From positions 124,001 through 188,000 of the forward strand of contig JANSYK010000002.1 in assembly GCA_024742485.1 (NCBI GenBank): a stretch of 64,000 nt of DNA, given 5' to 3'. Below, piece by piece: positions 1-17,149 of this stretch. A model generated the notes under the pieces. The model did no database searches. It was given only the letters and a program-made list of their open reading frames with translations, and had not been told where the DNA came from. Position 1 is the first letter of the stretch, and the number at the start of each line of letters is the position of its first letter. The DNA comes from Alphaproteobacteria bacterium. Lineage in GTDB: Bacteria; Pseudomonadota; Alphaproteobacteria; Rhizobiales; Rhizobiaceae. The translations under genes were made by a program, and so were the position numbers.

Positions 1-1
1 A

Positions 2-2059
2 TCCGTTCTCACCGCGGCGGATATTCCCGGCACCAACCGGTTTGGGGTGATCCCGCCTCTTGCCGACCAGCCCGGTCTTGCCGAAAGCCGGGTGCATTTT
101 CGCGGCGAAGCGATCGCAGTCATCGCCGGCGCAGCCGATGCGGTCGAAGCGCTCGACCTGTCGGATTTTCCGGTCAACTGGTCCCCCGCCACCGAGGTGC
201 TGACGACGGAGCAAGCGCTGGATGCAGCGCTCATTCATCCGTCCCGACCGGGCAATATTCTGATCAATGGTCGTGTCGCCACCGGCGATCCGGACACCGC
301 CCTCGCGGGTTCGGCCCATGTGGTCGAGGCTTCGATCGAAACGGGCTTTGTCGAACATGCCTATATTGAACCGGAAGCCGGCGCCGCGTGGATGGATGGG
401 GACATGCTGGTCATCCAGGCCTGTACCCAGGCCCCGGTGATGGATCGCGACGACATCGCGGTGATGATGAATCTTGATGCTGACAAGGTGCGGATCATGC
501 CGGCGGCCGCCGGTGGCGGCTTTGGCTCCAAGCTCGACCTGTCATTGCAGCCGCTGATTGCCCTTGTCGCCCTGAAAACCGGCAAACCCTGCCGGATGGT
601 CTATAGCCGCGGCGAATCCATGGCGTCGACCACCAAACGCCATCCGGGCGCCATGACCGCCAGGATCGGGTCCGATGCCGATGGCCGCATCACCGGCATG
701 ACCTTCCATGGCGATTTCAATACCGGCCCCTATGCCAGTTGGGGGCCGACGGTCGCGACCCGTGTGCCGGTCCATGCCTCGGGTCCGTACCGAACCCCGC
801 ATTACCGCGCCACGACCCGCGCCATCCACACCAATGGGCCCGTCGCCGGCGCCTTTCGCGGCTTCGGGGTTCCGCAGGCGGCGATCCTGCAGGAGACGCT
901 CTACGATGAACTGGCCAATGCCGGCGGCATGGACCGGCTGGAATTTCGCAAACGCAACGCCTTGCATGACGGTGAACGGACCGTCTGCGGTCAGACGTTG
1001 CACGGGGTCGGTATCGCCGAATGCCTGGAAGCGCTTGAGCCGCGCTGGCATGCGGCAGCAGCTGAAATCCGTGCCTTCAACAAGGGATCGGCGGTGCGAA
1101 AGCGCGGCATGGGCGTTGCCAGTTGCTGGTATGGCTGCGGCAACACCGCCTTGCCGAATCCGTCAACGGTACGCCTGGGTTTTTGCGCTGACGGACGATT
1201 GAAACTGCATCAGGGTGCGACGGATATCGGCCAGGGATCGAACACCGTGATCACCCAGATCTGCGCCGACGCGTTGGGGCTTCCGATCGATGCTTTCGAA
1301 TTGATTGGTCCCGATACGGCACTGACGCCCGATTGCGGCAAAACGTCCGCATCGCGCCAGACCTATGTAACCGGCAAGGCTGCGGAAAGAGCGGGACAGG
1401 CGTTGCGGGCGCAAATCCTTCGGCTGAGCAACAAGGGCAACGATGCCAAGCTCCGTCTGGATGGGCACAATGTGCTGGTCGACGACGGTCAGACCACCCA
1501 GTCGATTTCACTGGCCGCTTTGCCCGTGGATGAATTTGGATACGCCTTATCCGTCGAAGAAACCTATGATCCGCCCACAACACCGCTCGATGAGGACGGG
1601 CAGGGCGTACCCTATGCGGTCTATGGTTACGGCGCCCAATTGGCGGAAGTCGAGGTCGATCTGGCGCTTGGGACCGTGCGGGTCGTCGCGGTCACGGCCG
1701 CCCATGATCTTGGCCGTGTCATCAATCCACTTCTGGCCGAGGGACAGATCGAGGGTGGCATTGCACAGGGGCTGGGCCTTGCCCTGATGGAAGAATTCAT
1801 TCCGGGCGCTTCGGAAAATCTCCATGACTATTTGATCCCGACAATCGGCGACATGCCGGCAATCCGGTCCATTCTCATTGAAAAACCCGATCCGGAAGGG
1901 CCGATGGGCGCCAAAGGACTGGGTGAGCACGTCCTGATCCCCACCGCGCCGGCAATTCTCAACGCGATCCACCACGCCTGCGGAGCACGGATCACCAAGG
2001 TGCCGGCCCTCCCGCACAGGGTTTTGGCGGCAATCAGGCAGGCAGGAGAAAGCGCATGA
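2..2059 (+). CDS. Molybdopterin-binding (large) subunit of a xanthine dehydrogenase-family hydroxylase, 5'-truncated by the window edge
   Basis: The reading frame is open from base 2, so the true start lies outside the window; 685 residues are visible. It belongs to the xanthine oxidase/aldehyde oxidase family, whose large subunit holds the molybdenum cofactor and inserts a water-derived oxygen next to a ring nitrogen. Seen directly: the GGGFGSK cofactor loop (about nt 510-530), the GAFRGFG motif (about nt 850-870) with the conserved Arg, and the C-terminal GAKGLGE segment (about nt 1907-1930) whose Glu is the usual catalytic base. The FAD and 2Fe-2S subunits would be expected upstream. Its stop overlaps the next gene by 4 nt (ATGA), so the two are translationally coupled. 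The neighbour resembles 6-hydroxynicotinate reductase, so a nitrogen heterocycle is the likely substrate; nicotinate is a guess, and purine-, pyrimidine- or other azaarene-like rings are equally open. Confidence 0.88.
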   Translation, partial: SVLTAADIPGTNRFGVIPPLADQPGLAESRVHFRGEAIAVIAGAADAVEALDLSDFPVNWSPATEVLTTEQALDAALIHPSRPGNILINGRVATGDPDTALAGSAHVVEASIETGFVEHAYIEPEAGAAWMDGDMLVIQACTQAPVMDRDDIAVMMNLDADKVRIMPAAAGGGFGSKLDLSLQPLIALVALKTGKPCRMVYSRGESMASTTKRHPGAMTARIGSDADGRITGMTFHGDFNTGPYASWGPTVATRVPVHASGPYRTPHYRATTRAIHTNGPVAGAFRGFGVPQAAILQETLYDELANAGGMDRLEFRKRNALHDGERTVCGQTLHGVGIAECLEALEPRWHAAAAEIRAFNKGSAVRKRGMGVASCWYGCGNTALPNPSTVRLGFCADGRLKLHQGATDIGQGSNTVITQICADALGLPIDAFELIGPDTALTPDCGKTSASRQTYVTGKAAERAGQALRAQILRLSNKGNDAKLRLDGHNVLVDDGQTTQSISLAALPVDEFGYALSVEETYDPPTTPLDEDGQGVPYAVYGYGAQLAEVEVDLALGTVRVVAVTAAHDLGRVINPLLAEGQIEGGIAQGLGLALMEEFIPGASENLHDYLIPTIGDMPAIRSILIEKPDPEGPMGAKGLGEHVLIPTAPAILNAIHHACGARITKVPALPHRVLAAIRQAGESA

Positions 2060-3549
2060 GCGTGTCAGAAGGCACCATCCAAACCCCGTCGACACCCGAA
2101 AAGGTCCGATGCGATGCCTGTCCGGTCATGTGCTATGTGGCCGAGGGACGCACCGGTGCCTGCGATCGCTATGCCAATGAAAACGGTCGAATCGTCCGCT
2201 GCGATCCACTGACCATTCTGGATCGGCGGATCGCCGCCGGAGATGAAATTAAGCCGTTCTTGAAATCCGATTGGGAAGAGCAGCCCTTTTCGGGCGACGA
2301 GGTGTTTGTTACGGCCATCGGATCGGGAACGACCTATCCCGATTACAAACCCGCTCCCTTTATCGTTAGCCGGGAAATTGATGGTGCCGATTGCGTCACC
2401 GTCGTGACCGAGGCGATCTTCTCCTATTGCGGTGCGAAGGTGAAGATCGACACGGACCGCCATCTCGGTGCAGAGGCGGCAACGGTCCGGGCGGCGGGCG
2501 AGGCGGTTGGCCATGTCATGACAAGCGAATATGGATCCCAGATGCTGTCGCTCGGCGGTGTCGATCATTTGACCGGCGGCAGCAAGGCCGAGGGCAGGGT
2601 GACATGCGACACGCTGATGCGCCTGTGCAACAGGGAACCGGTGGAGCTAACGATCGATGGCGGATCGTCGGTAATCGTCGAGGCCGGCAAGGCGCCGATC
2701 GTTGACGGGCAGAAGGAAGAGCGCATGCGGGTCGGCTGCGGATCGGCGACCATCGGCATGTTTGCCGCGCAATGGGACGGCCTGGTCGACGAAGTCGTTG
2801 TTGTCGATGATCACATTACCGGTGTCGTGTCCGAGCACCAGGCCGGCAAAGTGCTTGGTTGGCCGGACACCGGCATTCGCATCAAGGGCCGGCGGTCGAC
2901 CCCCGGTCGCTATTTCCAGGTCGCAGAGCCGGGTCTTGGCTGGGGCGGCACCGACATCGACGATCCGCTCACCATCCTCGGTCCGTGGAACGCAAAGAAG
3001 GGTGCACGGCCAGGTCTGACGATGCTGATGGTGTCGACGACGGGTGAACAATATGGATATTACGTGCTCGATGAGGAGCTGGTGCCTCAACGCCAGAACC
3101 TTCCGGCAACGCTTGAGCCCAGTGTCGAACTCATCGGCGAAAACTGCGAGCCGGCCCTGTGCACGGTCCTGTTCATGGGTGGTGCCGGCGGATCGTTGCG
3201 GGCGGGCGCGACCCGCAACCCGGTCAAGCTGACACGATCGGTTCATAGCACCTCCACCCGTGTGACCTGCGGCGGCGCGCCGGCCTATATCTGGCCAGGT
3301 GGCGGAATCACCATCATGGTCGATGTCACGCAGATGCCCGATCAATCCTTTGGATATGTGCCGACGCCGGCGATCGTCGCACCGATCGAATTCAATGTCA
3401 GCCGCGAGGATTATCGTGCTCTCGGGGGCTATGACGAGGCGGTTCGTTCTGTCGAGGACATTGTTGAACGGGGCGGTGAATATGGCGATGCCATTCGCGC
3501 CGTCACGCCGCCGGACGGTGCGTCCACCAACGGCAAGGACAATTCGTGA
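2056..3549 (+). CDS. 6-hydroxynicotinate reductase-like iron-sulfur protein
   Basis: A 497-residue protein resembling Her, the 6-hydroxynicotinate reductase of the Eubacterium barkeri nicotinate fermentation, which reduces the hydroxylated ring to a tetrahydro-oxo form. The N-terminus has four cysteines spaced C-x2-C-x3-C-x9-C (C19, C22, C26, C36), suited to a 4Fe-4S cluster. The rest is a Gly-rich alpha/beta region without an obvious membrane segment or signal peptide, so the protein is probably cytosolic. It overlaps the hydroxylase subunit by 4 nt and is followed after one base by a UPF0280 gene. The arrangement suggests hydroxylation by the molybdenum enzyme, then ring reduction here. The family is broad, and the exact substrate cannot be read from sequence. 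An aerobic-type proteobacterium carrying this protein is notable because the characterised member comes from a strict anaerobe. Confidence 0.78.
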   Translation: MSVSEGTIQTPSTPEKVRCDACPVMCYVAEGRTGACDRYANENGRIVRCDPLTILDRRIAAGDEIKPFLKSDWEEQPFSGDEVFVTAIGSGTTYPDYKPAPFIVSREIDGADCVTVVTEAIFSYCGAKVKIDTDRHLGAEAATVRAAGEAVGHVMTSEYGSQMLSLGGVDHLTGGSKAEGRVTCDTLMRLCNREPVELTIDGGSSVIVEAGKAPIVDGQKEERMRVGCGSATIGMFAAQWDGLVDEVVVVDDHITGVVSEHQAGKVLGWPDTGIRIKGRRSTPGRYFQVAEPGLGWGGTDIDDPLTILGPWNAKKGARPGLTMLMVSTTGEQYGYYVLDEELVPQRQNLPATLEPSVELIGENCEPALCTVLFMGGAGGSLRAGATRNPVKLTRSVHSTSTRVTCGGAPAYIWPGGGITIMVDVTQMPDQSFGYVPTPAIVAPIEFNVSREDYRALGGYDEAVRSVEDIVERGGEYGDAIRAVTPPDGASTNGKDNS

Positions 3550-3550
3550 C

Positions 3551-4411
3551 ATGCCCTGGGAGCAACCGCAATCGGCGATGCTGCCCGACGGCAGGCGGTT
3601 GCATCTCAATCACGGACCGATCGATCTGATTATCGAAAGTTTCAGCCCCGACCGCGAAAGCGTGTACCAACGGGCACGCGGACGCTTTGAAACCCTGCTG
3701 CAGGACCTGGCGGCTGAATTGCCGCAGCTCAGGAGCCCGTTGTCACGAAACCCGGATGTGGAAGGTGTCGTGGCGCACCGCATGCTCCGTGCCATCCGCC
3801 CGTTTCAGGACCGGTTTGTCACCCCGATGGCGGCTGTTGCCGGCGCCGTGGCCGATGAAATGCTCGATGTGATGGTCGCCCGGCGGGATGAACCAAAAAC
3901 CTATGTCAACAATGGCGGCGATGTGGCCTTTCACCTTGATGGAGCGGAGCGGTTCGATGTCGAGATCGCCAGTCGACCCTCCGGGCGTATTTCCGTTTGT
4001 GCCGCCGATCCGGTGCGCGGTGTCGCCACCTCGGGCTGGCGTGGGCGCAGTTTCTCTCTTGGGATCGCCGATTCGGTCACTGTCGTGGCCCATAATGCGG
4101 CCGCGGCCGATGTGGCGGCGACGCTGATCGCCAACGAAGTGGACCTGCCGGATCACCCGGCAATCCGCCGGACACCGGCAAGTGCGCTTGCGCCGGACAG
4201 CGATCTTGGCGACAGACCCGTCACGACCGGTGTCGGCGATCTGACATCGGACGAAACCGAAGGAGCGCTGGACAACGGCGCACGCTACGCGACCAAACTC
4301 CACGATGCCGGCCACATCGCCGGTGCCGTCATGATGCTCAACGATAAAATACGATGGATCGGCACGGATAGCCTGCAGATCGATAGCGAAAGGGAACGGC
4401 ACCATGCCTGA
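3551..4411 (+). CDS. UPF0280 family protein (ApbE-like fold family)
   Basis: A 286-residue protein of the uncharacterised UPF0280 family, which is distantly related to ApbE-type flavin transferases. The ATG at 3551 lies one base after the stop of the Her-like gene; a longer reading frame starting upstream only overlaps that gene and is not credible. The sequence has an N-terminal part beginning MPWEQPQSAMLPDGRR, a Gly/Asn-rich stretch YVNNGGDVAFHL in the middle (about residues 118-129) and a TSGWRGRSFSLG segment. These recall the NNGGD and TSG motifs of ApbE-like proteins. The last 8 bases overlap the next gene. The linkage suggests a maturation or accessory role for the neighbouring reductase, for example flavin attachment, but this is inference. 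Confidence 0.75.
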   Translation: MPWEQPQSAMLPDGRRLHLNHGPIDLIIESFSPDRESVYQRARGRFETLLQDLAAELPQLRSPLSRNPDVEGVVAHRMLRAIRPFQDRFVTPMAAVAGAVADEMLDVMVARRDEPKTYVNNGGDVAFHLDGAERFDVEIASRPSGRISVCAADPVRGVATSGWRGRSFSLGIADSVTVVAHNAAAADVAATLIANEVDLPDHPAIRRTPASALAPDSDLGDRPVTTGVGDLTSDETEGALDNGARYATKLHDAGHIAGAVMMLNDKIRWIGTDSLQIDSERERHHA

Positions 4412-4985
4412 ATTCAAATTGCGCAAGACAATGATCTTCATCGAGGAAACCCGTCACGAAAACGGGCCGGCGCCGGCGACACCTCGCCGCAAGGGCGCCA
4501 TTCTGGCCGTTGTGAGCAATCCTTTTGCCGGGCAGTTTCACGCGGATCTTCAGGGCGCCATGGACGATCTCAAACCGCTCGGTCTGATGATGACCGACAG
4601 GCTGATCGAAGCGCTGGGTGGTCCCGCCGAAATCGATGGCTTCGGCAAGGGCGCCATAGTCGGTGAAAACGGGGAACTGGAGCACGGTGCGCTGTGGCAC
4701 GTGCCGGGCGGCTATGCGATGCGGGAAAAGCTCGGCGATTCGGCAGCCATCGTACCATCCTGCAAAAAGGTCGGCGGTGTCGGCACTCGGCTCGATATTC
4801 CCCTCGGCCACATCAATGCGGCCTATGTGCGAAGTCATTTTGACGGCATCGAAGTAGGGCTGAACGATAGTCCGCGCGCAAATGAAATCCTGTTCGCGCT
4901 TGCCATGGCCTGCGGACCGCGCATTCACAATCGCATGGGCGGTCTGGAGGCCCGCGACGTCAAGGGTGAAGACGGCCTGCGATAG
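4404..4985 (+). CDS. 'Amino acid synthesis' (AA_synth) family protein
   Basis: A 193-residue protein that I recognise as the AA_synth family (an uncharacterised family despite its name). Visible landmarks are an opening basic stretch MPEFKLRKTMIFIEETRHENG, a central IVGENGELEHGALWHVPGGYAMRE segment and the C-terminal SPRANEILFALAMACGPRIHNR stretch. The start codon lies 8 bases inside the preceding UPF0280 gene, so the two are coupled. Members of this family commonly sit beside cyclic amide hydrolases, amidohydrolases and molybdenum hydroxylases, which fits a role in opening or processing a partly reduced nitrogen ring, but no activity is established. It is the last gene of the tight cassette; a 129-base gap separates it from the decarboxylase gene. 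Confidence 0.72.
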   Translation: MPEFKLRKTMIFIEETRHENGPAPATPRRKGAILAVVSNPFAGQFHADLQGAMDDLKPLGLMMTDRLIEALGGPAEIDGFGKGAIVGENGELEHGALWHVPGGYAMREKLGDSAAIVPSCKKVGGVGTRLDIPLGHINAAYVRSHFDGIEVGLNDSPRANEILFALAMACGPRIHNRMGGLEARDVKGEDGLR

Positions 4986-5114: not shown

Positions 5115-6536
5115 ATGGACAAACGCGAATTTCGTACCTGGTCGCACCGCGCCAGCGACTGGTCGGCGGACTATCTGGACACGATCTCCGACCGTCCTGT
5201 CAGACCGGACGTTCAACCGGGCGATATCGGCAAACTGTTTGCCGACTCACCCCCCGAAACGCCGGAATCCATGGAAGCGATTTTCGATGATTTCGAACGG
5301 ATCATCCCGGGCGGCATGACCCATTGGCAGCATCCGCGTTTCTTTGCCTATTTCCCGTCCAATGCCGCACCGGCAGCGATCATTGCGGAGCAGCTGGCTG
5401 GAACCATGGCCGCGCAATGCATGCTGTGGCAGACATCACCGGCCGCAACCGAGCTTGAGGAAAAGATGATCGACTGGCTGCGTCAGGCGATCGGCTTGCC
5501 CGAGCAATTCAGCGGCACATTTCAGGACACCGCATCGTCGGCAACTCTGTGCGCCGTTTTGACCATGCGGGAACGGGCACTCGAATGGAGCGGCAACCAG
5601 ACCGGTTTGTCTGGCCGCGAAACACTTCGCGTCTATGCGTCGACCGGCACCCACAGTTCCATTGACAAGGCGATGTGGATCGCCGGGCTCGGTCAGAACA
5701 ATCTGGTCAAGATCCCAACCAATGATGATCAGGCGATGGACGTCGAAAGGCTGCGGGCCGCCATCCAGGCGGATCGGGAGGCCGGCATGCTTCCCGCCGG
5801 TCTGGTCGTTTGTGTTGGTGGCACCTCAATCGGCGCAACGGATCATGTCGATACGCTGTGTGACGTCGCGAAAGCCGAGGATCTCTTCATCCATGTCGAT
5901 GCAGCATGGGCGGGGTCCGCAATGATCTGTCCCGAATTCCGCTCGCTCTGGCAGGGCGTCGAGAAGGCCGACAGCATCGTTTTCAATCCACACAAATGGC
6001 TTGGCGCATCGATGGAGTGTTCGGCGCATTTCGTCCGTGATCCCGCCACGCTGATCCGCACGCTGTCCATACAGCCCGAATATCTGAAGACCCTGGGCAA
6101 GGAGGACATTGTCAATTTCAGTGAGTGGTCGGTGCAGCTCGGCCGGCGCTTCCGCGCCTTGAAGGTCTGGTTTCTGCTGCGCGCCTACGGGCTGGACGGT
6201 CTTCGAATGCGCATTCGAAACCACGTAGCCTGGGCCCGGACGCTGGCCGAACGCATCGGCGCCGAGCCGGACTTTGAAATCACCACGGAGCCTGTACTGT
6301 CGCTGTTTTCATTTCGTCACCGGCCCGCCGATCTGGACAGCGATCTCGACACGCACAATCGCGACCTGGTCGAAGCGATCAACAATGACGGGCGCATCTA
6401 TCTGACCCAGACCCAGCATGATGGAAAACTGGTGATCCGGTTCGTCGCCGGACAATTCGAAATGGAGGAGACAGACGCACAGATCGCCTTCGAGACGATC
6501 TGCGAAATCGCCCGGTCCCACGAGAGCGGGCGGTAG
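5115..6536 (+). CDS. PLP-dependent group II amino acid decarboxylase (aromatic-L-amino-acid decarboxylase-like)
   Basis: A 473-residue enzyme of the DOPA/tryptophan/tyrosine decarboxylase family. The PLP-binding lysine is visible as K294 in FNPHKWLGAS, preceded by the VDAAWAGSA aspartate motif that contacts the pyridine nitrogen. The N-terminal region with PGGMTHWQHPRFFAYFP is typical of the aromatic amino acid decarboxylase branch. The length matches the family (about 470-500). The ATG at 5115 follows an AGAGAG-type ribosome site. Whether it acts on aromatic amino acids or on another acid cannot be told. Its stop codon TAG overlaps the GTG start of the downstream DUF454 gene by one base, so those two are coupled. 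It may or may not belong to the upstream heterocycle cassette, from which it is 129 nt away. Confidence 0.88.
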   Translation: MDKREFRTWSHRASDWSADYLDTISDRPVRPDVQPGDIGKLFADSPPETPESMEAIFDDFERIIPGGMTHWQHPRFFAYFPSNAAPAAIIAEQLAGTMAAQCMLWQTSPAATELEEKMIDWLRQAIGLPEQFSGTFQDTASSATLCAVLTMRERALEWSGNQTGLSGRETLRVYASTGTHSSIDKAMWIAGLGQNNLVKIPTNDDQAMDVERLRAAIQADREAGMLPAGLVVCVGGTSIGATDHVDTLCDVAKAEDLFIHVDAAWAGSAMICPEFRSLWQGVEKADSIVFNPHKWLGASMECSAHFVRDPATLIRTLSIQPEYLKTLGKEDIVNFSEWSVQLGRRFRALKVWFLLRAYGLDGLRMRIRNHVAWARTLAERIGAEPDFEITTEPVLSLFSFRHRPADLDSDLDTHNRDLVEAINNDGRIYLTQTQHDGKLVIRFVAGQFEMEETDAQIAFETICEIARSHESGR

Positions 6537-6939: not shown

Positions 6940-8436
6940 TCAGCTTTCCACCGCCTCCAGCGCCACATCGTAGCCCCACAATCTTTCAAGATGCGCCAGC
7001 GTGGCGTCGCGTTGCTCATCGTCCAGCGTCACGCCATTGCGTTTGACATGTTGAAGTTTGAGGCAACGGTCCCCCAGGAGGTCGACATCGACCACCTCGA
7101 TATGCGGCTCGAGAGAGGCGACATCATGGTTCTGGGCCAGGGTATCGCGGATGACGTGGAATCCACGCTCATCGTGGATTCCAGAAACGAGATAAAAGGG
7201 ATCATCCGCATTATCCGACAGGGCAAACATCCGGAAACGGCGCATCACGGCCGGGCTGAGAAATTGCTGAATGAAGGATTCATCACGGTAGTTGGCCCAG
7301 GCCTCCGCCAGCACATTTTTCCAGTCTCTTGAGCCGGCAATATCGGGAAACCAGGCACGATCCTCCTCACGCGGATCATTACAGATCCTTTGAATGTCCT
7401 GCATCATGGCAAATCCGAGCGCGTAGGGATTGATGCCGCTGAAACGCGGATCATCGAAATCCGGTTGAAACAGCACATTGGTGTGATTGTGCAGGATCTC
7501 CAGCATCGCACCGTCGCTCAAGAGCCCCTGTTCGTGCAGGGTGTTGATGATATGAAAATGGACGAAACAGGCGCACCCCTCATTCATCAGCTTGGTTTGT
7601 TTCTGCGGGTAGAAATACTGCGCGATATTGCGGATGATTCGCAGAACTTCCCGTTGCCATGGCTGCAGGACAGGGCTGTAGTGTTCGAGGAAATAGAGAA
7701 GATTTTCTTCCGGCAGGTGCAGTTCCCGTTTTCGTTCACGTATCTGCGCATCGGTTTTCGATGTGTGGGCGGTGTCGGGCAGGATGCTCCACAAATAGCT
7801 GACGGCCTGCTCTTCATGTGCCCGCCGTTCCCTTTGACGCTCCTGTTCCTGGCGAAGCGATGGCGGCTGTTTTCGGCGATAGCGAAAGACACCGTTCGGC
7901 ATCAGCGCATGCCCGGCATCAAGAATGTCTTCGACGGCGCTGGGGCCATGCGCCTCTTCGCAATCGGCGATATAGCCCCGCGCATATTCCAGATAGTCGA
8001 GAATTCCGGCGGCATCGGTCCATTGCCGGAACAGATGATTCGTCTTGAAAAAATGATTATGGCCGAATGCCGCATGGGCCATGACCAGGGTCTGCATGGC
8101 CATGGAGTTTTCTTCCATGCAATAGGAGATGCACGGGTCGGAATTGATGACAATCTCATAGGCCAGCCCCATCGCACCCTTTCGATAGGAGCGCTCGCTC
8201 TGCATGAAGTGTTTGCCGAAGGACCAGTGTCGGTACATCAGCGGCATGCCGATTGACGAATAGGCATCGAGCATCTGCTCGGAAGAAATGATCTCGATCT
8301 GATTGGTATAGAAATCCAGTGCCAGGTCCTTGCGGGCCACCATCTCGATCGCATCATGGACACGCCGCAACGTGTCGAAGGTCCAGTCGGCGCCCTCAAA
8401 CAGGGGTGATGCTGATTTGCGGGCTGCCTGCGTCAT
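6940..8436 (-). CDS. SpoVR family protein (YcgB-like)
   Basis: A 498-residue SpoVR-family protein. I chose the ATG at 8436 (MTQAARKSASPLF), one base after the stop of the YeaH gene; the longer frame upstream only covers that gene. The family landmarks are the SFGKHFMQSERSYRKGAMGLAYEIVINSDPC region (about residues 72-105) and HAAFGHNHFFKTN. SpoVR was first noted for a cortex-formation defect in Bacillus, but in proteobacteria the gene is associated with prkA and yeaH and its biochemical role is unknown. It is the third gene of a prkA-yeaH-spoVR run, which matches the known linkage of these three families in stationary-phase or stress gene sets. Confidence 0.93.
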   Translation of the reverse strand: MTQAARKSASPLFEGADWTFDTLRRVHDAIEMVARKDLALDFYTNQIEIISSEQMLDAYSSIGMPLMYRHWSFGKHFMQSERSYRKGAMGLAYEIVINSDPCISYCMEENSMAMQTLVMAHAAFGHNHFFKTNHLFRQWTDAAGILDYLEYARGYIADCEEAHGPSAVEDILDAGHALMPNGVFRYRRKQPPSLRQEQERQRERRAHEEQAVSYLWSILPDTAHTSKTDAQIRERKRELHLPEENLLYFLEHYSPVLQPWQREVLRIIRNIAQYFYPQKQTKLMNEGCACFVHFHIINTLHEQGLLSDGAMLEILHNHTNVLFQPDFDDPRFSGINPYALGFAMMQDIQRICNDPREEDRAWFPDIAGSRDWKNVLAEAWANYRDESFIQQFLSPAVMRRFRMFALSDNADDPFYLVSGIHDERGFHVIRDTLAQNHDVASLEPHIEVVDVDLLGDRCLKLQHVKRNGVTLDDEQRDATLAHLERLWGYDVALEAVES

Positions 8437-8437
8437 G

Positions 8438-9751
8438 TCATGCCTCCGCCGTCTTCTTGGCAAACAGCTCCCGAAAAACAGGGTAGATATCCGCCGGTCG
8501 CGCAATCCGTTTCATCGCAAAATTCGGCCATTTTTCCGCAACGCGGCGATAGTGCCGCCACAGTTCCACACCGTTGTCCTCATTGTTGAGAAAACCGATC
8601 TCCGCTTCGTCGACAATCTCGACATAGGCGAAATACTGGCAACAGCGCATCAGGTGATCATCGAGCAGCCGAACGCATTTGTCCGAGTCGCCCGAAAAAT
8701 TCTCACCATCCGATGCTTGCGCCATATAGATGTTACACTCGGAGGGCGGATAGCGCTCATCGACAAGGCGCGCTGCCTCGCTCAGTGCCGTGCTGACCAC
8801 CGTCCCGCCAGTCTCCCGCGAGTGAAAGAAAGTATCTTCATCGACCTCCTGCGCATTGTGGGTGTGCCGCACAAAGACCAGGTCGATGGAGGTGTAGCGG
8901 CGACTGAGAAACAGATGCAGCAACACGAAAAAGCGTTTGGCCAGATCCTTTTCCCGTTCACCCATCGAGGCCGAAACATCCATCAGGCAGAACATGACGG
9001 CCTTTTCGCGCGGTTCCGGGCGATGCTCGAAATAATTGTAGCGCACGTCGAGCGGATCGATATAAGCAATGACCCGCTGCCGGCGCAGTGTTTCCTCCAG
9101 CAATCCGTGCAACGCGGCAAGTTGCTTTCGCTGTTTCGCCGTTGGCGATGACACCGCCTCGAGAGCGAAAATCTCCGCGCGCAATGCCCGGACTTCTTGA
9201 TCGTTTGGCCGCTTGAGCGCCAATCGCCGGCCAAGAGCATTGCGCATGGTTCGCGTGACATTGATATTGGCCGGTGACCCACTGACCGAAAATCCGGCCC
9301 GGTGCGGTTTTTTCATTTCGATCTGTTTCAGGCCACGCTTGACCAGATTGGGCAGCTCCATATCCTCGAAAAACAGATCCAGAAATTCATCGCGCGACAG
9401 CACGAACAGAAACTCATCTTCACCGCTGCCCTCGTTGCTGCCCGTCTTGCCACCTCCGCCAGCCTCTTTGGTGGCAGGCTTTTTGATCCTGTCGCCGGTA
9501 TTGAAGGACTTGTTGCCGCTGGAGACATGATCGCGATGGCCGGATGTGGCCGAATGGCGAAAGATCGGCTCGGCAATGCTGCCGGACGGAATGACGACAT
9601 TCTCGCCGCGATCCGCATCGGCAATTGCCCGTTCGCGGACGGCATCGTCCACGGCTTTCTTGACATGCGTGCGAACGCGTTTGAGAAAGCGTCGCCGATT
9701 GCCCAGACTCTTGTCCTTCGGATTGAGTCGCCGGTCGACGAAATGACCCAT
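8438..9751 (-). CDS. YeaH/YhbH family protein (DUF444, von Willebrand A-like)
   Basis: A 437-residue DUF444 protein. The start is the ATG at 9751 (MGHFVDRRLNPKDKSLGNRRRF), preceded by an AAAGGAGG ribosome site. The N-terminal half is charged with a Gly-rich linker (about residues 97-110). The C-terminal half holds a von Willebrand A-type domain with the metal-ion site DVSAS (D258-S262), followed by MGEREKDLAKRFF. It lies between prkA (80 nt upstream) and spoVR (1 nt downstream). In enterobacteria yeaG-yeaH are co-regulated in stationary phase and nitrogen starvation; the PrkA-family kinase and the VWA partner may act like an AAA-plus-VWA pair, which is inference from domain types. Confidence 0.93.
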   Translation of the reverse strand: MGHFVDRRLNPKDKSLGNRRRFLKRVRTHVKKAVDDAVRERAIADADRGENVVIPSGSIAEPIFRHSATSGHRDHVSSGNKSFNTGDRIKKPATKEAGGGGKTGSNEGSGEDEFLFVLSRDEFLDLFFEDMELPNLVKRGLKQIEMKKPHRAGFSVSGSPANINVTRTMRNALGRRLALKRPNDQEVRALRAEIFALEAVSSPTAKQRKQLAALHGLLEETLRRQRVIAYIDPLDVRYNYFEHRPEPREKAVMFCLMDVSASMGEREKDLAKRFFVLLHLFLSRRYTSIDLVFVRHTHNAQEVDEDTFFHSRETGGTVVSTALSEAARLVDERYPPSECNIYMAQASDGENFSGDSDKCVRLLDDHLMRCCQYFAYVEIVDEAEIGFLNNEDNGVELWRHYRRVAEKWPNFAMKRIARPADIYPVFRELFAKKTAEA

Positions 9752-9831
9752 TGGGTTCAATGGCCTCCTTTGATGCACAGACGGTCGCGATTTACGGCAA
9801 ATGGCTGCCGGCCAAGCAGGTGAGGGTTCAC

Positions 9832-11766
9832 CTAGCCTGCCTTGTTGACCCGCATGTACCATTCGACGAGCCGGCGGACCTGCCGCCTGGTATAGCCGCG
9901 TTCGATCATGCGCTCGACGAACTCATGATGCTTGGCATCGGCTTCCTTGTCGCGCTTGGCGCCGAAACTGATAACCGGCAGCAAATCTTCCACCTGTCCG
10001 AACATGCGCTTTTCGATGACGCGACGCAGCTTCTTGTATTTGCGCCAGTCTGGATTCTTGCCCTGGTTTTCGGCTCGCGCCCGCAGCACGAATTTCACCA
10101 CCTCGTTGCGAAAATCCCGGGGATTGGAGATGCCGGCCGGTTTTTCGATCTTGGCCAGTTCCTGATCGAGGATATCGCGATCGAACATCTGGCCGGTGTC
10201 GGGGTCCTTGTAGTCATGCTCCTCGATCCAGGCATCCGCATAGGCGATATAGCGGTCGAACAGGTTCTGCCCGTAGTCCGAATAGGATTCCAGATAGGCC
10301 TTTTGAATTTCATGGCCGATGAACTCCGCATAGCGCGGCATCAGTTCAGCCTTGAGAAATTCCAGATAACGGCCCTCAACCTCTTCGCTGTATTGTTCGC
10401 GCTTGATCGCCTGCTCCAGCACATACATCAGATGCACCGGATCAGCGGCGATCTCCTCGGTATCGTGGTTGAACGTCTCCGACAGCACCTTGAACGCAAA
10501 ACGGGTCGATGTGCCGTTCATGCCTTCATCCACGCCGGCAACGTCGCGGTATTCCTGCAGTGACTTCGCCTTGGGATCGGTGTCCTTCAGGGTCTCGCCA
10601 TCATAGACGCGCAATTTGGAGTGAAGCGTCGAGTTTTCATGTTCATGCAGCCGTGTCAGCACGCTGAAACGGGCCATGATATCCAGCGTCTCGGGCGCAC
10701 ATGCAGCATCGCCCAGCGCACTGTCACGCAGCAGTTTTTCATAAATCTGCGCTTCTTCGGTCGCGCTCAGACAATAGGGAACCTTGACGACGCTGATCCG
10801 GTCAAGAAACGCCTCATTGTTCTTGTTGTTCTTGAATTGCTGCCATTCGGCCTCGTTGGAATGGGCAACAATGATACCCTGATAGGGAAACGCACCGATA
10901 TTTTCCGTGCCCACATAGGACCCCTCCTGGGTCGCCGTGAGCAGCGGATGCAGCACCTTGATCGGCGCCTTGAACATCTCGACGAATTCCAGCAGCCCCT
11001 GCGTCGTACGATTGAGACCGCCCGAATAGCTGTAGGCGTCAGGATCGTTCTGGCTGAGGTGTTCCAGCTTGCGGATATCCAGCTTTCCTACCAGCGACGA
11101 CACATCCTGATTGTTTTCATCGCCCGGCTCGGTCTTGGCGACACCCACCTGACGCAGCTTGGACGGGTAAAGTTTGACGATCGAGAATTTGGAGATATCG
11201 CCGTCGAATTCATCCAGCCGCTTGACCGCCCAGGGCGACAGCAGTCCGGTCAGAAGGCGTCTGGGTATGTTGTATTTGTCTTCAAGCAGCTCACCCATGC
11301 GCTCGGGCGTAAAAAGACCCAGGGGTGATTCAAACACCGGGCTGATCTGCTCTCCAGCCTTGAGCACGTAGATCGGCTCGTGCTCCATCAGGCGCTTGAG
11401 GATTTCGGCCACCGTCGATTTGCCGCCGCCGACCGGGCCGAGCAGATAGAGGATCTGCTTGCGTTCCTCCAGCCCCTGGGAGGCATGTCGGAAGAAACCG
11501 ACGATGCGCTCGATGGTCTCTTCCATGCCGTAAAGGCCGGCAAAGGCCGGGTATCGTTTGATTGTCCGATTTAGAAAAATGCGGCTGAGCCGCTGATCCT
11601 GGCTGGTATCGACCAGCTCCGGCTGTCCGATCGCGGTAATCATCCGTTCCGCCGCGGTGGCCCGCATGCCCGGTTCGTCCCGGCATGCCAGCAAGTAGTC
11701 CTGCAGGGTTATCTCTTCTACCTTGGTCCGGTCATAAACCTCGGATTGCAGAGAAAACACGTCCAT
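9832..11766 (-). CDS. prkA: PrkA family serine protein kinase (YeaG-like, AAA+ plus kinase domains)
   Basis: A 644-residue protein, matching the usual PrkA length of about 640. I took the ATG at 11766 (MDVFSLQSEVYDRTKVEE), which follows AGGAAAGGA; the longer frame upstream is not supported. The Walker A motif GPVGGGKST is at residues 110-118, within an AAA-type core that extends to about residue 370. The C-terminal third carries the PrkA kinase-like domain, ending in EWYMRVNKAG. The family is associated with stress and stationary-phase adaptation, and newer work treats members as AAA+ proteases or kinases, so the real activity here is open. It is first in the prkA-yeaH-spoVR run. A GGAAC-N17-CATT element about 33-58 nt upstream of the start resembles an EcfG (general stress) promoter but is imperfect. 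Confidence 0.94.
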   Translation of the reverse strand: MDVFSLQSEVYDRTKVEEITLQDYLLACRDEPGMRATAAERMITAIGQPELVDTSQDQRLSRIFLNRTIKRYPAFAGLYGMEETIERIVGFFRHASQGLEERKQILYLLGPVGGGKSTVAEILKRLMEHEPIYVLKAGEQISPVFESPLGLFTPERMGELLEDKYNIPRRLLTGLLSPWAVKRLDEFDGDISKFSIVKLYPSKLRQVGVAKTEPGDENNQDVSSLVGKLDIRKLEHLSQNDPDAYSYSGGLNRTTQGLLEFVEMFKAPIKVLHPLLTATQEGSYVGTENIGAFPYQGIIVAHSNEAEWQQFKNNKNNEAFLDRISVVKVPYCLSATEEAQIYEKLLRDSALGDAACAPETLDIMARFSVLTRLHEHENSTLHSKLRVYDGETLKDTDPKAKSLQEYRDVAGVDEGMNGTSTRFAFKVLSETFNHDTEEIAADPVHLMYVLEQAIKREQYSEEVEGRYLEFLKAELMPRYAEFIGHEIQKAYLESYSDYGQNLFDRYIAYADAWIEEHDYKDPDTGQMFDRDILDQELAKIEKPAGISNPRDFRNEVVKFVLRARAENQGKNPDWRKYKKLRRVIEKRMFGQVEDLLPVISFGAKRDKEADAKHHEFVERMIERGYTRRQVRRLVEWYMRVNKAG

Positions 11767-11798
11767 GATTCTCGTCCTTTCCTGGTCCTGTCCCCTCC

Positions 11799-11824
11799 AA
11801 TGGCTGTGGCTCGTTAAGTGTTCC
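11799..11824 (-). promoter_or_regulatory. Weak candidate general-stress (EcfG-type) promoter of prkA
   Basis: On the minus strand GGAAC (11820-11824) is followed by 17 bases and then CATT (11799-11802). Alphaproteobacterial EcfG promoters have GGAAC and CGTT at about this spacing, so the -35 is perfect and the -10 has one mismatch. The position, 33 nt before the prkA ATG, is suitable. This fits the stress association of the operon, but a single near-match is weak evidence. Confidence 0.25.
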
Positions 11825-12035
11825 CTATGTGGTGTCCGCCCGAAGGCATGACGAATCAAAACAAATTGAGAAACGATGTGACCTGATGCCTGGCGCACCG
11901 CCCGCGCCGAATCAGAATCCCGTCACCCCATCATACCATCAAATAGGGCAGGAAGCGGGGAAAACACGGGGCCTGTCCGACGATCGCCGAAAAATCCGGC
12001 GCTGCAACGGGGCGATGCCGGACCAGGCTGCCCGG

Positions 12036-13789: not shown

Positions 13790-16700
13790 TCAGTGAAAAT
13801 TGCGACCCTTCGGCAGCACCCTGCGTGTGGCCATGCTGTAGACGTCCGGCGTACTGCGCCGTTGCGGTGCCTGGATGACCATGTCGTGCAACCTGGCGGC
13901 CTTGGCGCGCCGCGCCTCCGGGTCCGGCGGTTCGCGGCGCACTTCGTCGGCGCGGGCCAGGCCGTCGATCGGCTGGTCGGCATCCGACAGGCCGGAAAGC
14001 AGCGGCGTCAGGTCTTCCAATTGACGTGCAATGACGTGGATGACCCCATCATGGGATTGCAGCGGCCCCCGTATGCCGACAAACCGGCTGCCGAGCACGA
14101 TGGTACGGTACTGCTCGAAAACCTTTGGCCAGACGATGATATTGGCAACGCCTGTTTCGTCCTCGATCGTCTGGAACACCACACCCTTGGCCGTACCCGG
14201 CCGCTGACGCACCAGAACCAGCCCGGCAACCGAAACAAAGCGGCCGGACCGGCAGTCGGGAAGCGTGATATTCTGCCGATAGCCGGCCTGCACCAGCCGG
14301 TTCCGGACGAAGGAGATCGGATGGGCTTTCAGCGAAAAGGACAGGCTGCGGTAATCATTGATCACCTGCTCGCCCAGCGGCATGGGCGGCAGGGCGATAT
14401 CCGGTTCGCGCTGCAGGTCCCTCTGGCCGGCCAGGGCAAAAAGTGGCAGCCGCTCGGCGGCCCCCAGCGGATCGAGAGCCCGTACCGCCCATAACGCATC
14501 ACGGCGGCTCAGGCCGATCGAAGCGAATGCATCGGCCTCGGCGAGCTTTTCCATCGCCCGGCGCGACAGGCCCGACCGCATCCACAGGTCACGCACGCTG
14601 TCATAGCCGGCACCGCGCTTTTCCACCAACCGGTCGGCTTCCTCTTCCCCGAATCCCTTGATCCGATGGAAACCCAGACGCACCGCATGGGTGTTTTTCA
14701 TGAGAGGTGTCATGCTGGCATGGCGCGGCGAGACCGATGCCGGCCGCGTGTGGGGATCGGTCCCCATATCCGGCTCCAGAAGCGAATACCATTGCGAATG
14801 GTTGATATCGACCGCCCGCACCTCGACCCCGTGCTCGCGGGCATCGCGCACCAGCTGGGCCGGCGCGTAAAACCCCATCGGCTGGGAATTCAGGATGGCA
14901 GCGCAGAAGACATCCGGATAATAACATTTGAGCCAGCAGGATACATAGACCAGCAAGGCGAAACTGGCCGCATGGCTTTCGGGAAAACCGTAATCGCCAA
15001 ACCCTTCGATCTGGCTGAAACAATGTTCGGCAAAATCCCGTTCATAGCCATTGGCAACCATGCCTTCGACCATCTTGATGCGAAAGGAATGGATTGTGCC
15101 GACCCGGCGGAACGTCGCCATGGCGCGGCGCAATTTGTCGGCCTCTCCCGGTTCGAAATTGGCCGCGACGATGGCAATGTTCATCGCCTGCTCCTGAAAC
15201 AGCGGAACGCCCAGGGTTTTGTGCAGAACCTCCCTCAGCTCCTCCTTGGGATAGGAAACGACCTCCTTTCCCTGCCGGCGCCGCAGATAGGGATGCACCA
15301 TGTCGCCCTGAATGGGGCCGGGTCGCACAATGGCGACCTCGATGACCAGATCATAATAGCAGCGCGGCCGCAGCCGCGGCAGCATCGACATCTGGGCGCG
15401 GCTTTCGATCTGGAAAACGCCGATCGTATCGGCCCTGCAGATCATGTCATAGACATGATCATCGTCATCCTGCAGCGACGAAAGGGTTTCGCGGCGACCA
15501 TAATGCTGCTCCAGCAATTCAAATGCCTTGCGGATGCAGCTGAGCATGCCCAGACCCAGCACATCGACCTTCAGAATGCCGAGACATTCCAGATCGTCCT
15601 TGTCCCATTCGACGACGGTACGGTCATCCATCGCGGCATTTTCGATCGGCACCACCGAGCTCAGCCGGTCGCGGGTAATCACGAAACCGCCCACATGCTG
15701 CGACAGATGGCGCGGAAAGCCGATGATCTGCGTGGCCATGTCGAGGATCTGCATCAGGTGCTTGTCGTCGGGATCAAGACCGGCGCGCTTTGCGTCCTCC
15801 GCATCCAGCTGCGCGGAGGAAGCCCCCCAGCGCGTGCCGGAAATGGCGGTGATCATGTCATCCGACAATTCGAAGACCTTGCCCACCTCGCGCAGCGCCG
15901 AACGGGAGCGATAGGTGATCACCGTGGCGGCAAGGCCCGCCCGGTCCCGCCCGTATTTCTCATAGATATATTGAATGACCTCCTCGCGTCTTTCATGTTC
16001 GAAATCGACATCGATATCGGGCGGCTCATTGCGTTCTTCGGAGATGAACCGCTCGAACAGCAGGTCGACCTTGTCGGGATTGACCTCGGTAATGCGAAGA
16101 CAGTAGCAGACGGCGGAATTGGCCGCCGAACCGCGCCCCTGGCACAGGATTGCCTTGCTGCGGGCAAAGCGCACAATATCGTAGACCGTCAGAAAATAGG
16201 GCGCATATTCCAGTTTGCCGATCAGCCCCAGCTCGTGGCGGACCGCTGCCAGTACCTTTTCGGGCGCCCCGTCCGGATAGCGGGTTTTCAACCCCTCGGC
16301 TGTCAGCCGCTCAAGCGTTTCCTGCGGCGGCGTGGCGCTGCCCGTCGGCTCCTCGGGATATTCATAGCGCAGCTTGTCCAGGGAAAAGCGGAGGCGTGCA
16401 AGCACCTTGCCGGTCTCGGCAACGGCATATTCATACCCTTTGAAGAGGCGCAGCATTTCGGCGCCGGAGCGCAGGTGCCTTTCGGCATTGGGTTCGAGTA
16501 GCTGTCCGGCTTCACGCAATGGAACATGTTCGCGGATGCAGGTCACGACATCCTGCAGGAACCGGCGTTCGGGACAATGATAGAGCACATCGCCGATGGC
16601 CAGCAGCGGCAGATCATGGCACCGGGCAAGCTTTGCCAGGCCGGCAAGACAGCGCTGGTCGAAGGCATCATATCGCCAGGCGGCGGCCAGATAGACATTG

Positions 16701-17149
16701 CCTTCAAACCGGCGGGCAAGCGTTTCAAGACAATCCGGTTCCGGCAGGGGCAGGACCGGCGGCAGCACGATGGTCATGATCAGACCCGTTCCATGCTCCA
16801 TCAGATCGTCCAGCGCCAGATGGCATTCGCCCTTTGGCGCACGGCGCTTGCCGAGCGTCAGAAGTTCGCACAGCCGCCCATAGGCCGCCCTATCCTGCGG
16901 CCAGACGAGAATATCCGGCGTGCCATCGGCAAAGACCAGCCGGCAGCCCGGCGCAAAGGCTAGTCCGGCTTCCTTCGCCGCCATATGCGCCCGCACGACG
17001 CCGGCAAGGGAGTTGCGGTCGGTAACGGCGATGCCCGCCAGTCCGAGCTTGGCGGCTTCGACCACGATTTCTTCGGGATGCGATGCGCCCCGCAGAAAGG
17101 AAAAATTGGTCGTCGCGGCAAGTTCGACATAGCCGGCAGCAGCGTCCAT
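13790..17149 (-). CDS. dnaE2: Error-prone DNA polymerase DnaE2 (ImuC)
   Basis: A 1,119-residue C-family polymerase alpha subunit of the DnaE2/ImuC type, the catalytic enzyme of SOS mutagenesis in bacteria lacking UmuDC. The N-terminal PHP domain starts at once (YVELAATTNFSFLRGASHPEE). The catalytic aspartates lie in PDIDVDFEHERREE (about residue 375-390), a helix-hairpin-helix region follows, and the end RVLPKGRNFH is typical. The ATG at 17149 overlaps the imuB stop as TGATG, so the genes are coupled. It is third in the imuA-imuB-dnaE2 operon, controlled by the LexA-type box upstream of imuA. Confidence 0.96.
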   Translation of the reverse strand: MDAAAGYVELAATTNFSFLRGASHPEEIVVEAAKLGLAGIAVTDRNSLAGVVRAHMAAKEAGLAFAPGCRLVFADGTPDILVWPQDRAAYGRLCELLTLGKRRAPKGECHLALDDLMEHGTGLIMTIVLPPVLPLPEPDCLETLARRFEGNVYLAAAWRYDAFDQRCLAGLAKLARCHDLPLLAIGDVLYHCPERRFLQDVVTCIREHVPLREAGQLLEPNAERHLRSGAEMLRLFKGYEYAVAETGKVLARLRFSLDKLRYEYPEEPTGSATPPQETLERLTAEGLKTRYPDGAPEKVLAAVRHELGLIGKLEYAPYFLTVYDIVRFARSKAILCQGRGSAANSAVCYCLRITEVNPDKVDLLFERFISEERNEPPDIDVDFEHERREEVIQYIYEKYGRDRAGLAATVITYRSRSALREVGKVFELSDDMITAISGTRWGASSAQLDAEDAKRAGLDPDDKHLMQILDMATQIIGFPRHLSQHVGGFVITRDRLSSVVPIENAAMDDRTVVEWDKDDLECLGILKVDVLGLGMLSCIRKAFELLEQHYGRRETLSSLQDDDDHVYDMICRADTIGVFQIESRAQMSMLPRLRPRCYYDLVIEVAIVRPGPIQGDMVHPYLRRRQGKEVVSYPKEELREVLHKTLGVPLFQEQAMNIAIVAANFEPGEADKLRRAMATFRRVGTIHSFRIKMVEGMVANGYERDFAEHCFSQIEGFGDYGFPESHAASFALLVYVSCWLKCYYPDVFCAAILNSQPMGFYAPAQLVRDAREHGVEVRAVDINHSQWYSLLEPDMGTDPHTRPASVSPRHASMTPLMKNTHAVRLGFHRIKGFGEEEADRLVEKRGAGYDSVRDLWMRSGLSRRAMEKLAEADAFASIGLSRRDALWAVRALDPLGAAERLPLFALAGQRDLQREPDIALPPMPLGEQVINDYRSLSFSLKAHPISFVRNRLVQAGYRQNITLPDCRSGRFVSVAGLVLVRQRPGTAKGVVFQTIEDETGVANIIVWPKVFEQYRTIVLGSRFVGIRGPLQSHDGVIHVIARQLEDLTPLLSGLSDADQPIDGLARADEVRREPPDPEARRAKAARLHDMVIQAPQRRSTPDVYSMATRRVLPKGRNFH

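Follow-up and report, generated by a model that had tools for sequence, protein, structure and literature searches.

Composition of the cassette and its left flank

This work concerns a cassette of four adjoining genes at the left end of a 64,000-nucleotide stretch of DNA (referred to here as the window) from an alphaproteobacterium of the family Rhizobiaceae (assembly GCA_024742485.1, contig JANSYK010000002.1, positions 124,001 to 188,000). All four reading frames were present when the open reading frames of the sequence were checked, and all lie on the forward strand (+). The first (1..2059) is the 3' part of a molybdenum hydroxylase subunit matching MoCoBD_1/2, probably a nicotinate 6-hydroxylase. 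It is followed by a 497-amino-acid member of the 6-hydroxynicotinate reductase family (HNR; 2056..3549), with an N-terminal CxxCPxxC...C motif and without a ferredoxin domain; by a UPF0280 protein (NF003322; 3551..4411) of the ApbE superfamily, proposed here as a flavin transferase-like maturase of the reductase; and by an AA_synth protein (DUF1185, PF06684; 4404..4985) with a fold like that of Bacillus chorismate mutase and a putative role at or after ring opening. HNR starts at 2056, 4 nucleotides (nt) inside the molybdenum subunit gene, whose last base is 2059; one base separates the HNR stop at 3549 from the UPF0280 ATG at 3551; and the end of UPF0280 at 4411 overlaps the start of AA_synth at 4404 by 8 nt. 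These coordinates agree with the tight spacing described in an earlier interpretation made from the letters alone (the sequence-only reading). The molybdenum subunit named in that reading is the end of a 911-residue fusion of [2Fe-2S] and molybdenum-cofactor parts that begins left of the window. In L006, a larger stretch of the same contig reaching left of the window, the whole fused gene occupies 15324-18059. The arrangement of the cassette is far above chance, as the reductase and UPF0280 adjoin in very distant genomes.

In L006, the fused gene is preceded by a gene for the flavin adenine dinucleotide (FAD) subunit, and further left are genes for a MarR regulator, a nicotinamidase, an ABC transporter, and HyuA/HyuB. 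The nicotinamidase has PDB entry 2wt9 as its best match (E 2.7e-74), and its gene starts 620 bases from the FAD-subunit gene, with MarR in between. For the transporter, the binding protein is Peripla_BP_6, the permeases and ATPases were assigned by eye, and the type is branched-chain by appearance. HyuA and HyuB match PF01968/PF05378 and PF02538 above cut-off and nearly over their full length, and their PDB relatives are N-methylhydantoinase and 5-oxoprolinase (7hk5, 6yra). The sequence-only reading had proposed looking to the left for the FAD and Fe-S subunits and for any hydrolase, transporter, or regulator; the flank fits heterocycle breakdown.

Assignment of the reductase

The HNR protein has no Pfam match at E ≤ 1, and its best NCBIfam and PDB matches (E 0.032 and 0.24, respectively) are far below cut-off or not significant. 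It was compared directly with the reductases of enamidase-bearing clusters, a set that does not include the HNR sequence of Eubacterium barkeri itself. The 31 compared rows from L099-L140 are 38-44% identical to it, and the 10 from L150-L175 are 59-67% identical; by these identities, the second gene of the cassette belongs with the reductases of enamidase-bearing nicotinate clusters. Of 116 aligned rows, 113 have all four cysteines of the motif (C19, C22, C26, and C36), and the remaining three are gapped there. An AlphaFold2 model of the protein is confident (predicted local distance difference test [pLDDT] 86.3, predicted template modeling score [pTM] 0.83). Searched with Foldseek at E ≤ 0.001, it matched nothing in the PDB or among viral models, and this unrecognised fold is one of the new findings.

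An N-terminal stretch with two ferredoxin-type motifs was found in 34 of the 37 HNR rows of L098-L141, a mostly clostridial and sulfate-reducer set (one row is without it and two are without the anchor motif). Unlike these clostridial-type rows, the window reductase has no such domain, nor do any of the 63 rows of L006, L007, and L038-L097 (62 without, 1 without the anchor motif) or the 19 rows of L142-L177 (18 without, 1 without the anchor motif). The two-cluster ferredoxin domain was treated as a trait of the clostridial-type subtype and not as defining HNR, because in PMC3511419 an aerobic protein with 42% identity is classed as HNR. The lack of the domain in the aerobic HNR is also new here, and this enzyme would thus probably take its electrons from a separate carrier. 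At one locus, L097, HNR is split into two overlapping matches (G028:C1:2969811-2971228) followed by UPF0280 and AA_synth matches, which may be a read error or decay.

Co-occurrence of UPF0280 with HNR and DUF39

The UPF0280 gene of the window matches the NCBIfam model NF003322 (the PRK04334 "hypothetical protein" model) with 353.9 bits, against a curated cut-off of 290. We take NF003322 to be UPF0280, and COG2122 and UPF0280 to be one family. Among 385 alphaproteobacterial genomes, HNR occurs in 68 and UPF0280 in the same 68, with no genome carrying one alone (Fisher p 2e-77, relatedness ignored). Within a set of 62 cassettes, consisting of the two of the window's assembly (the second is described below) and 60 fetched alphaproteobacterial ones, UPF0280 comes after HNR on the same strand in 61; in the exception, L096, the locus ends inside HNR and UPF0280 lies on another contig of that genome. 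In addition, 80 loci were fetched by an enamidase search of named genomes, and HNR, counted above 150 bits, was present in 58 of them, including, by their titles, Bacillota, sulfate reducers, and one archaeon. In 50 of the 58, UPF0280 comes directly after HNR; in 4 (L106, L110, L111, and L171) it is found at another place in the locus, and in the remaining 4 (L105, L117, L129, and L174) at another place in the genome. Five genomes with an enamidase and no HNR in the locus were sampled; UPF0280 is missing in four of them and present in one. A scan of the frames of the 62 and 80 loci showed no gene in which HNR and UPF0280 are fused. The suggestion of the sequence-only reading that UPF0280 is a dedicated part of the route is thus supported: in the 385 alphaproteobacterial genomes, UPF0280 never occurs without the reductase.

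PMC3511419 already lists conserved nicotinate clusters that hold two proteins of unknown function, and the window could accordingly be viewed as an ordinary copy of the published Azorhizobium/Bradyrhizobium cluster with bystander genes and nothing more. We consider this improbable: HNR came with UPF0280 in every genome tested for both, and UPF0280 is therefore no bystander. The type of ring opener also differs between cassettes, as detailed below.

A further partner was found in archaea. Among 60 archaeal genomes from the phylum of the HNR-bearing archaeon, DUF39 (PF01837) is present in 48 and UPF0280 in 50, the latter being the 48 DUF39 genomes plus G385, which has a full-length HNR, and G402, which has a weak match (E 9e-6). 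Other archaeal matches to the HNR profile, among the matches listed, fall within model positions 2-135, mostly the ferredoxin part. The weak UPF0280 match (G402:C1:747503-748500) comes from an archaeon that has neither DUF39 nor a full-length HNR, and a ferredoxin-like match precedes it by ∼0.5 kb; a third UPF0280 partner is perhaps to be found there. HNR and DUF39 were also considered as homologues, as they share four weak motifs in the same order. The hhalign E values were 0.10-0.21, and the profile alignment score was 9.83, compared to 6.9-9.8 for 12 column-shuffled controls, so homology is not supported. DUF39 has no PDB relative by sequence. What is new here is the obligate ApbE-like partner of HNR and, in archaea, its second partner, DUF39.

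Relationship of UPF0280 to ApbE and its proposed role

A UPF0280 profile aligned to 13 ApbE sequences with an hhalign probability of 97.1% (E 5.6e-11) over ApbE columns 143-264, and the HNR and AA_synth controls reached 0.1-0.2% against the ApbE profile. The window UPF0280 protein itself has no Pfam match at E ≤ 1. Four weak ApbE-family places exceed the Pfam cut-off for ApbE (PF02424) together with their in-frame neighbours, and three of the four (G390, G391, and G392) are, by coordinates, the UPF0280 genes of L140, L114, and L098.

In Vibrio cholerae numbering, the ApbE triad consists of Asp285, Ser241, and His257 (PMC12052999); residue spacing in an ApbE row was used to place it on UPF0280. 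Its Ser and Asp are kept in 115 of 115 UPF0280 rows, as S165 and D191, and the Thr four residues after the triad Asp (T195) is likewise invariant (115/115). Unlike ApbE, UPF0280 is missing the His257 loop and with it the full Asp-Ser-His triad; between positions 60 and 200, one column only (132) has His in >30% of rows (48/115). Because of the missing His, we refer to UPF0280 as a superfamily relative and do not class it as ApbE. In V. cholerae ApbE, changing His257 to Gly is reported to lower activity, with a Km of 0.2 instead of 0.1 µM (PMC12052999), so transfer is still compatible with the missing residue. Based on homology and co-occurrence, we propose that UPF0280 is a maturase of HNR, which would probably attach the flavin of the reductase.

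The purified E. barkeri reductase reportedly contains a covalent flavin, one 2Fe-2S cluster, and two 4Fe-4S clusters. It speaks against flavin attachment that no invariant ApbE-type motif, D-x-x-[S/T]-G-A-[S/T], is present across the 116 HNR rows; position T386 is Thr in 102 of these rows, Cys in 8, Val in 3, and Ala in 3. Thr386, whose surroundings (AGAT in the window, AGVT in the second cassette) resemble the ApbE motif, was rejected as a universal flavin site, as 14 of 116 rows, including that of Acetobacterium bakii (L098), have no Thr there. HNR positions 173-176 (TGGS), examined in position counts, were set aside as well, being gapped at their end in about one-third of rows. Candidate residues for a flavin link are T115, S123, S230, S281, and S380, which are invariant in HNR.

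According to PMC5764234, COG2122 is genetically needed with DUF39 for homocysteine synthesis, is distantly related to ApbE, seemingly outside the flavin-binding region, and has been linked by others to a persulfide. The DUF39-dependent system resembles the present one in drawing, on our assumption above, on the same family and in being an enzyme system with a ferredoxin partner, and differs in that DUF39 is not detectably related to HNR by sequence. Searched by name, UPF0280 gave no paper in the open-licence literature, including none, among the matches listed, tying it to a flavin transferase or ApbE.

The published work on COG2122 bears on a different role, in which UPF0280/COG2122 would be a sulfur-trafficking or persulfide protein, as suggested for MA1715 of a methanogen, serving iron-sulfur or molybdenum-sulfur assembly in the operon. 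Such a role has been proposed for COG2122 in homocysteine synthesis (PMC5764234, PMC12068725), and it suits the way UPF0280 tracks DUF39 in archaea. Against it, no Cys is found among the columns that are ≥95% conserved in the 115 UPF0280 rows, and UPF0280 follows HNR more than it follows enamidase, being absent from four of the five enamidase genomes without HNR in the locus. As a matter of general pathway knowledge, moreover, the 6-hydroxynicotinate reductase reaction involves no sulfur transfer. We therefore hold a sulfur role to be quite unlikely. Somewhat less remote, though still unlikely, is that the reductase has UPF0280 as a subunit or working partner, which might hold flavin or substrate, for example, and that no maturation is involved. 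A subunit would explain the strict adjacency and co-occurrence just as well, and the missing ApbE His base also speaks for it. Against it, the Ser, Asp, and Thr described above are invariant, the family also goes with a second enzyme system, and the two genes were not seen fused in the loci scanned. The maturase proposal can be extended, tentatively, to a broader one: UPF0280/COG2122 may be a pared-down ApbE that lacks the His loop and constitutes a new flavin transferase class, acting for both HNR and the DUF39 L-aspartate-semialdehyde sulfurtransferase.

A second cassette and the apparent exchange of ring openers

A scan with the cassette's own profiles found no enamidase, HyuA, or HyuB in the 64-kb window. 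No enamidase was found in L006 either, and the window cassette is not of the enamidase type. A second cassette is present on contig C144 (L007) of the same assembly, with an FAD subunit, a fused FeS/Mo subunit, HNR, UPF0280, and two AA_synth genes; the HNRs of the two cassettes are 67% identical. Here, an enamidase with 45% identity to that of E. barkeri (2vun; E 2e-105) is present, as are a flavin-type oxidoreductase, MarR, and an NMT1_3 binding protein. The assembly is marked as 4.74% contaminated. The GC content of C144 is 0.582, compared to 0.580 for the window, and its tetranucleotide likeness to the window is 0.943, where the window's own chunks give 0.975-0.985, the left flank gives 0.969, and other alphaproteobacterial loci give a median of 0.839 and a maximum of 0.948. 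By composition, C144 probably, though not certainly, belongs to the same genome as the window.

The oxidoreductase of the second cassette (PF00970; L007 12642-13523, +) has similar genes near HNR in L045, L070, and L095 and is a possible electron donor of the ferredoxin-less reductase. A frame at L007 116-787 (+) contains a Peptidase_S74 endosialidase-chaperone domain. This domain occurs in phage tail spikes, and a prophage or other mobile DNA may border the second cassette.

Across the 385 genomes, enamidase (counted genome-wide at ≥64% identity) is present in 31, of which 30 have HNR, corresponding to 30 of the 68 HNR genomes. When the 60 fetched cassettes were sorted by this enamidase and by HyuA (>600 bits, within the ∼9-kb fetched flank), 27 had enamidase only, 20 had HyuA only, none had both, and 13 had neither (Fisher 1.5e-7). 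The opener type changes six times on the HNR tree. The window HNR forms a HyuA-type clade with L038 and L039 (support 100), within a 22-row clade (support 100) that is otherwise of the enamidase type. The apparent exchange of ring openers between cassettes is also new here. As the reduced ring is a lactam and relatives of HyuA/HyuB open lactams with ATP, HyuAB likely opens the ring in the window cassette. The flank HyuA/HyuB match the hydantoinase/oxoprolinase Pfam families, and the closest known systems are the ATP-dependent lactam hydrolases N-methylhydantoinase, 5-oxoprolinase, and caprolactamase (PMC8453981); the substrate here would be the reduced ring. Among the literature matches listed (open-licence papers), no title links hydantoinase- or oxoprolinase-type enzymes to nicotinate.

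The case for HyuAB as a replacement of enamidase has a number of weak points. HyuA is on the opposite strand, ∼8 kb from the FAD gene and ∼12 kb from the reductase. The mutual exclusion of the two openers depends on cut-offs and search ranges that differ between them, and 13 of 60 cassettes have neither. Below the cut-offs, a HyuA-like gene (393 bits) is present in the enamidase-type L088, and a 38% identical enamidase-like gene is present elsewhere in the HyuA-type genomes G104 and G289. The window's own assembly, which is outside the 60, has both openers, one per cassette. Finally, a relatedness-aware test found four independent starred pairs, with none the same way (median p 0.125), which is not significant, the pairs being too few.

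It is also possible, though we give it less weight, that the window cassette acts on another nitrogen heterocycle and that nicotinate is handled by the second cassette, which has the enamidase. Two cassettes are retained in the assembly, their reductases differing to the extent given above, no enamidase was found near the window copy, and the window HNR sits in a three-row HyuA-type clade nested among enamidase-type rows. On the other hand, the nicotinamidase gene is separated from the FAD-subunit gene by MarR only, a nicotinamidase is also found by the enamidase-type cassette L049, and the reductase family is known for 6-hydroxynicotinate (PMC3511419).

AA_synth and its wider distribution

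The AA_synth protein scores 225.5 bits against PF06684 (Pfam cut-off, 27), and its model superimposes on 3byq with a template modeling (TM) score of 0.90. Crystal structures of DUF1185 are known and the fold is chorismate-mutase-like (PMC2954203); AA_synth has the same family and fold as these structures, 3byq and 2qtp. The sequence-only reading had regarded the functions of the last two proteins as undescribed; these structures and, for COG2122, a genetic role in homocysteine synthesis (PMC5764234) are nevertheless on record.

AA_synth is present in 82 of the 385 alphaproteobacterial genomes (81 above cut-off): 59 of the 68 with HNR and 23 of the 317 without. For 52 of 130 AA_synth genes, neither UPF0280 nor enamidase is found within 12 kb. 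In the fetched loci, AA_synth accompanies 24 of 27 enamidase-type and 9 of 20 HyuA-type cassettes, and in 14 of the 80 enamidase loci, some of them cut by contig ends, it is present with neither HNR nor UPF0280 in the locus. A second enamidase-like group (15 genes, 35-42% identity) has AA_synth within 3 kb in seven cases and no UPF0280 within 12 kb. AA_synth is thus associated with the cassette but is not dedicated to it, contrary to what the sequence-only reading had supposed; its genes also occur outside reductase cassettes, although most HNR genomes contain one. Since AA_synth occurs beside enamidase without HNR, it would belong to the ring-opening side more than to the reductase, and a role on the ring-opened enamine or aldehyde is our guess. 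A structure search with the AA_synth model recovered 3byq and 2qtp and nothing else at E ≤ 0.001, so the idea that AA_synth is a one-domain relative of ring-opening amidohydrolases or of RidA stays a guess from the published fold (PMC2954203). That paper suggested amino-acid metabolism, partly from transporter neighbours, whereas many of the copies seen here are in enamidase/HNR cassettes.

In seven genomes (G210, G300, G378, G381, G060, G202, and G306), an enamidase-like gene (39-42% identity) is separated from AA_synth by 74-122 bases, and UPF0280 is absent from the 12 kb around it. Three loci titled Actinomycetes, Acidimicrobiales, and Acidimicrobiia (L145, L146, and L147) combine a molybdenum hydroxylase, AA_synth, and enamidase with no HNR or UPF0280 in the locus, and UPF0280 is not matched anywhere in the genomes of L145 and L147; these loci possibly act on a ring needing no reduction.

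Right border of the cassette region

A pyridoxal-dependent decarboxylase gene (PF00282; window 5115-6536, +) starts 129 bases after AA_synth. Its link to the cassette is doubtful, and it was left out, as no match was found in the 60 other loci or in L007. SpoVR (PF04293), DUF444 (PF04285), and PrkA (PF08298/PF06798) then follow in a row (window 6940-11898, -) and form the right border of the region.

Proposed pathway and implications

The nicotinate-type left flank and the second cassette, with its E. barkeri-like enamidase, make the reductive nicotinate route the most likely chemistry. We favor, with reasonable though not strong confidence, reading the cassette as a unit for reductive breakdown of nicotinate (vitamin B3) in an aerobe-type bacterium, with UPF0280 as HNR maturase and HyuAB as the likely opener. 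In this pathway, nicotinamidase would make nicotinate, which the hydroxylase, composed of the FAD subunit and the fused FeS/Mo subunit, would convert to 6-hydroxynicotinate. HNR, judging from its family, would reduce this to 1,4,5,6-tetrahydro-6-oxonicotinate, with UPF0280 as the maturase that it needs, most likely for attachment of a covalent flavin. The lactam would then most likely be opened by the ATP-dependent HyuA/HyuB in place of the enamidase used elsewhere, and AA_synth may handle the ring-opened enamine or aldehyde, a placement suggested by its position beside enamidase where no reductase was seen.

Homology supports the hydroxylation and subsequent reduction of a nitrogen heterocycle, most likely nicotinate, that the sequence-only reading had put forward. 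That interpretation was right in outline, and the aerobic oxidative-then-reductive nicotinate route is mostly known and not new. PMC3511419 describes the conversion of 6-hydroxynicotinate to 1,4,5,6-tetrahydro-6-oxonicotinate in E. barkeri and in the aerobic Azorhizobium and reports that a strain of Bradyrhizobiaceae has a homologue of the reductase with 42% identity; PMC9304392 describes opening of the ring in E. barkeri by a bifunctional enamidase. Compared to the E. barkeri, Azorhizobium, and Bradyrhizobiaceae clusters, the window copy has no enamidase, has HyuA/HyuB some kilobases away, and has the FeS and Mo parts of its hydroxylase fused.

HNR emerges as an enzyme family without a matching Pfam or NCBIfam model and without a recognisable solved fold, and a second, ATP-driven way of opening the reduced nicotinate ring may exist. 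If UPF0280 is a flavin transferase for both HNR and DUF39, the enzyme that forms homocysteine in methanogens and sulfate reducers would be a covalent flavoprotein not recognised as such, and COG2122 would no longer be read as a sulfur carrier. The proposal offers a concrete, testable function for the conserved family UPF0280/COG2122, tied to two unrelated pathways.

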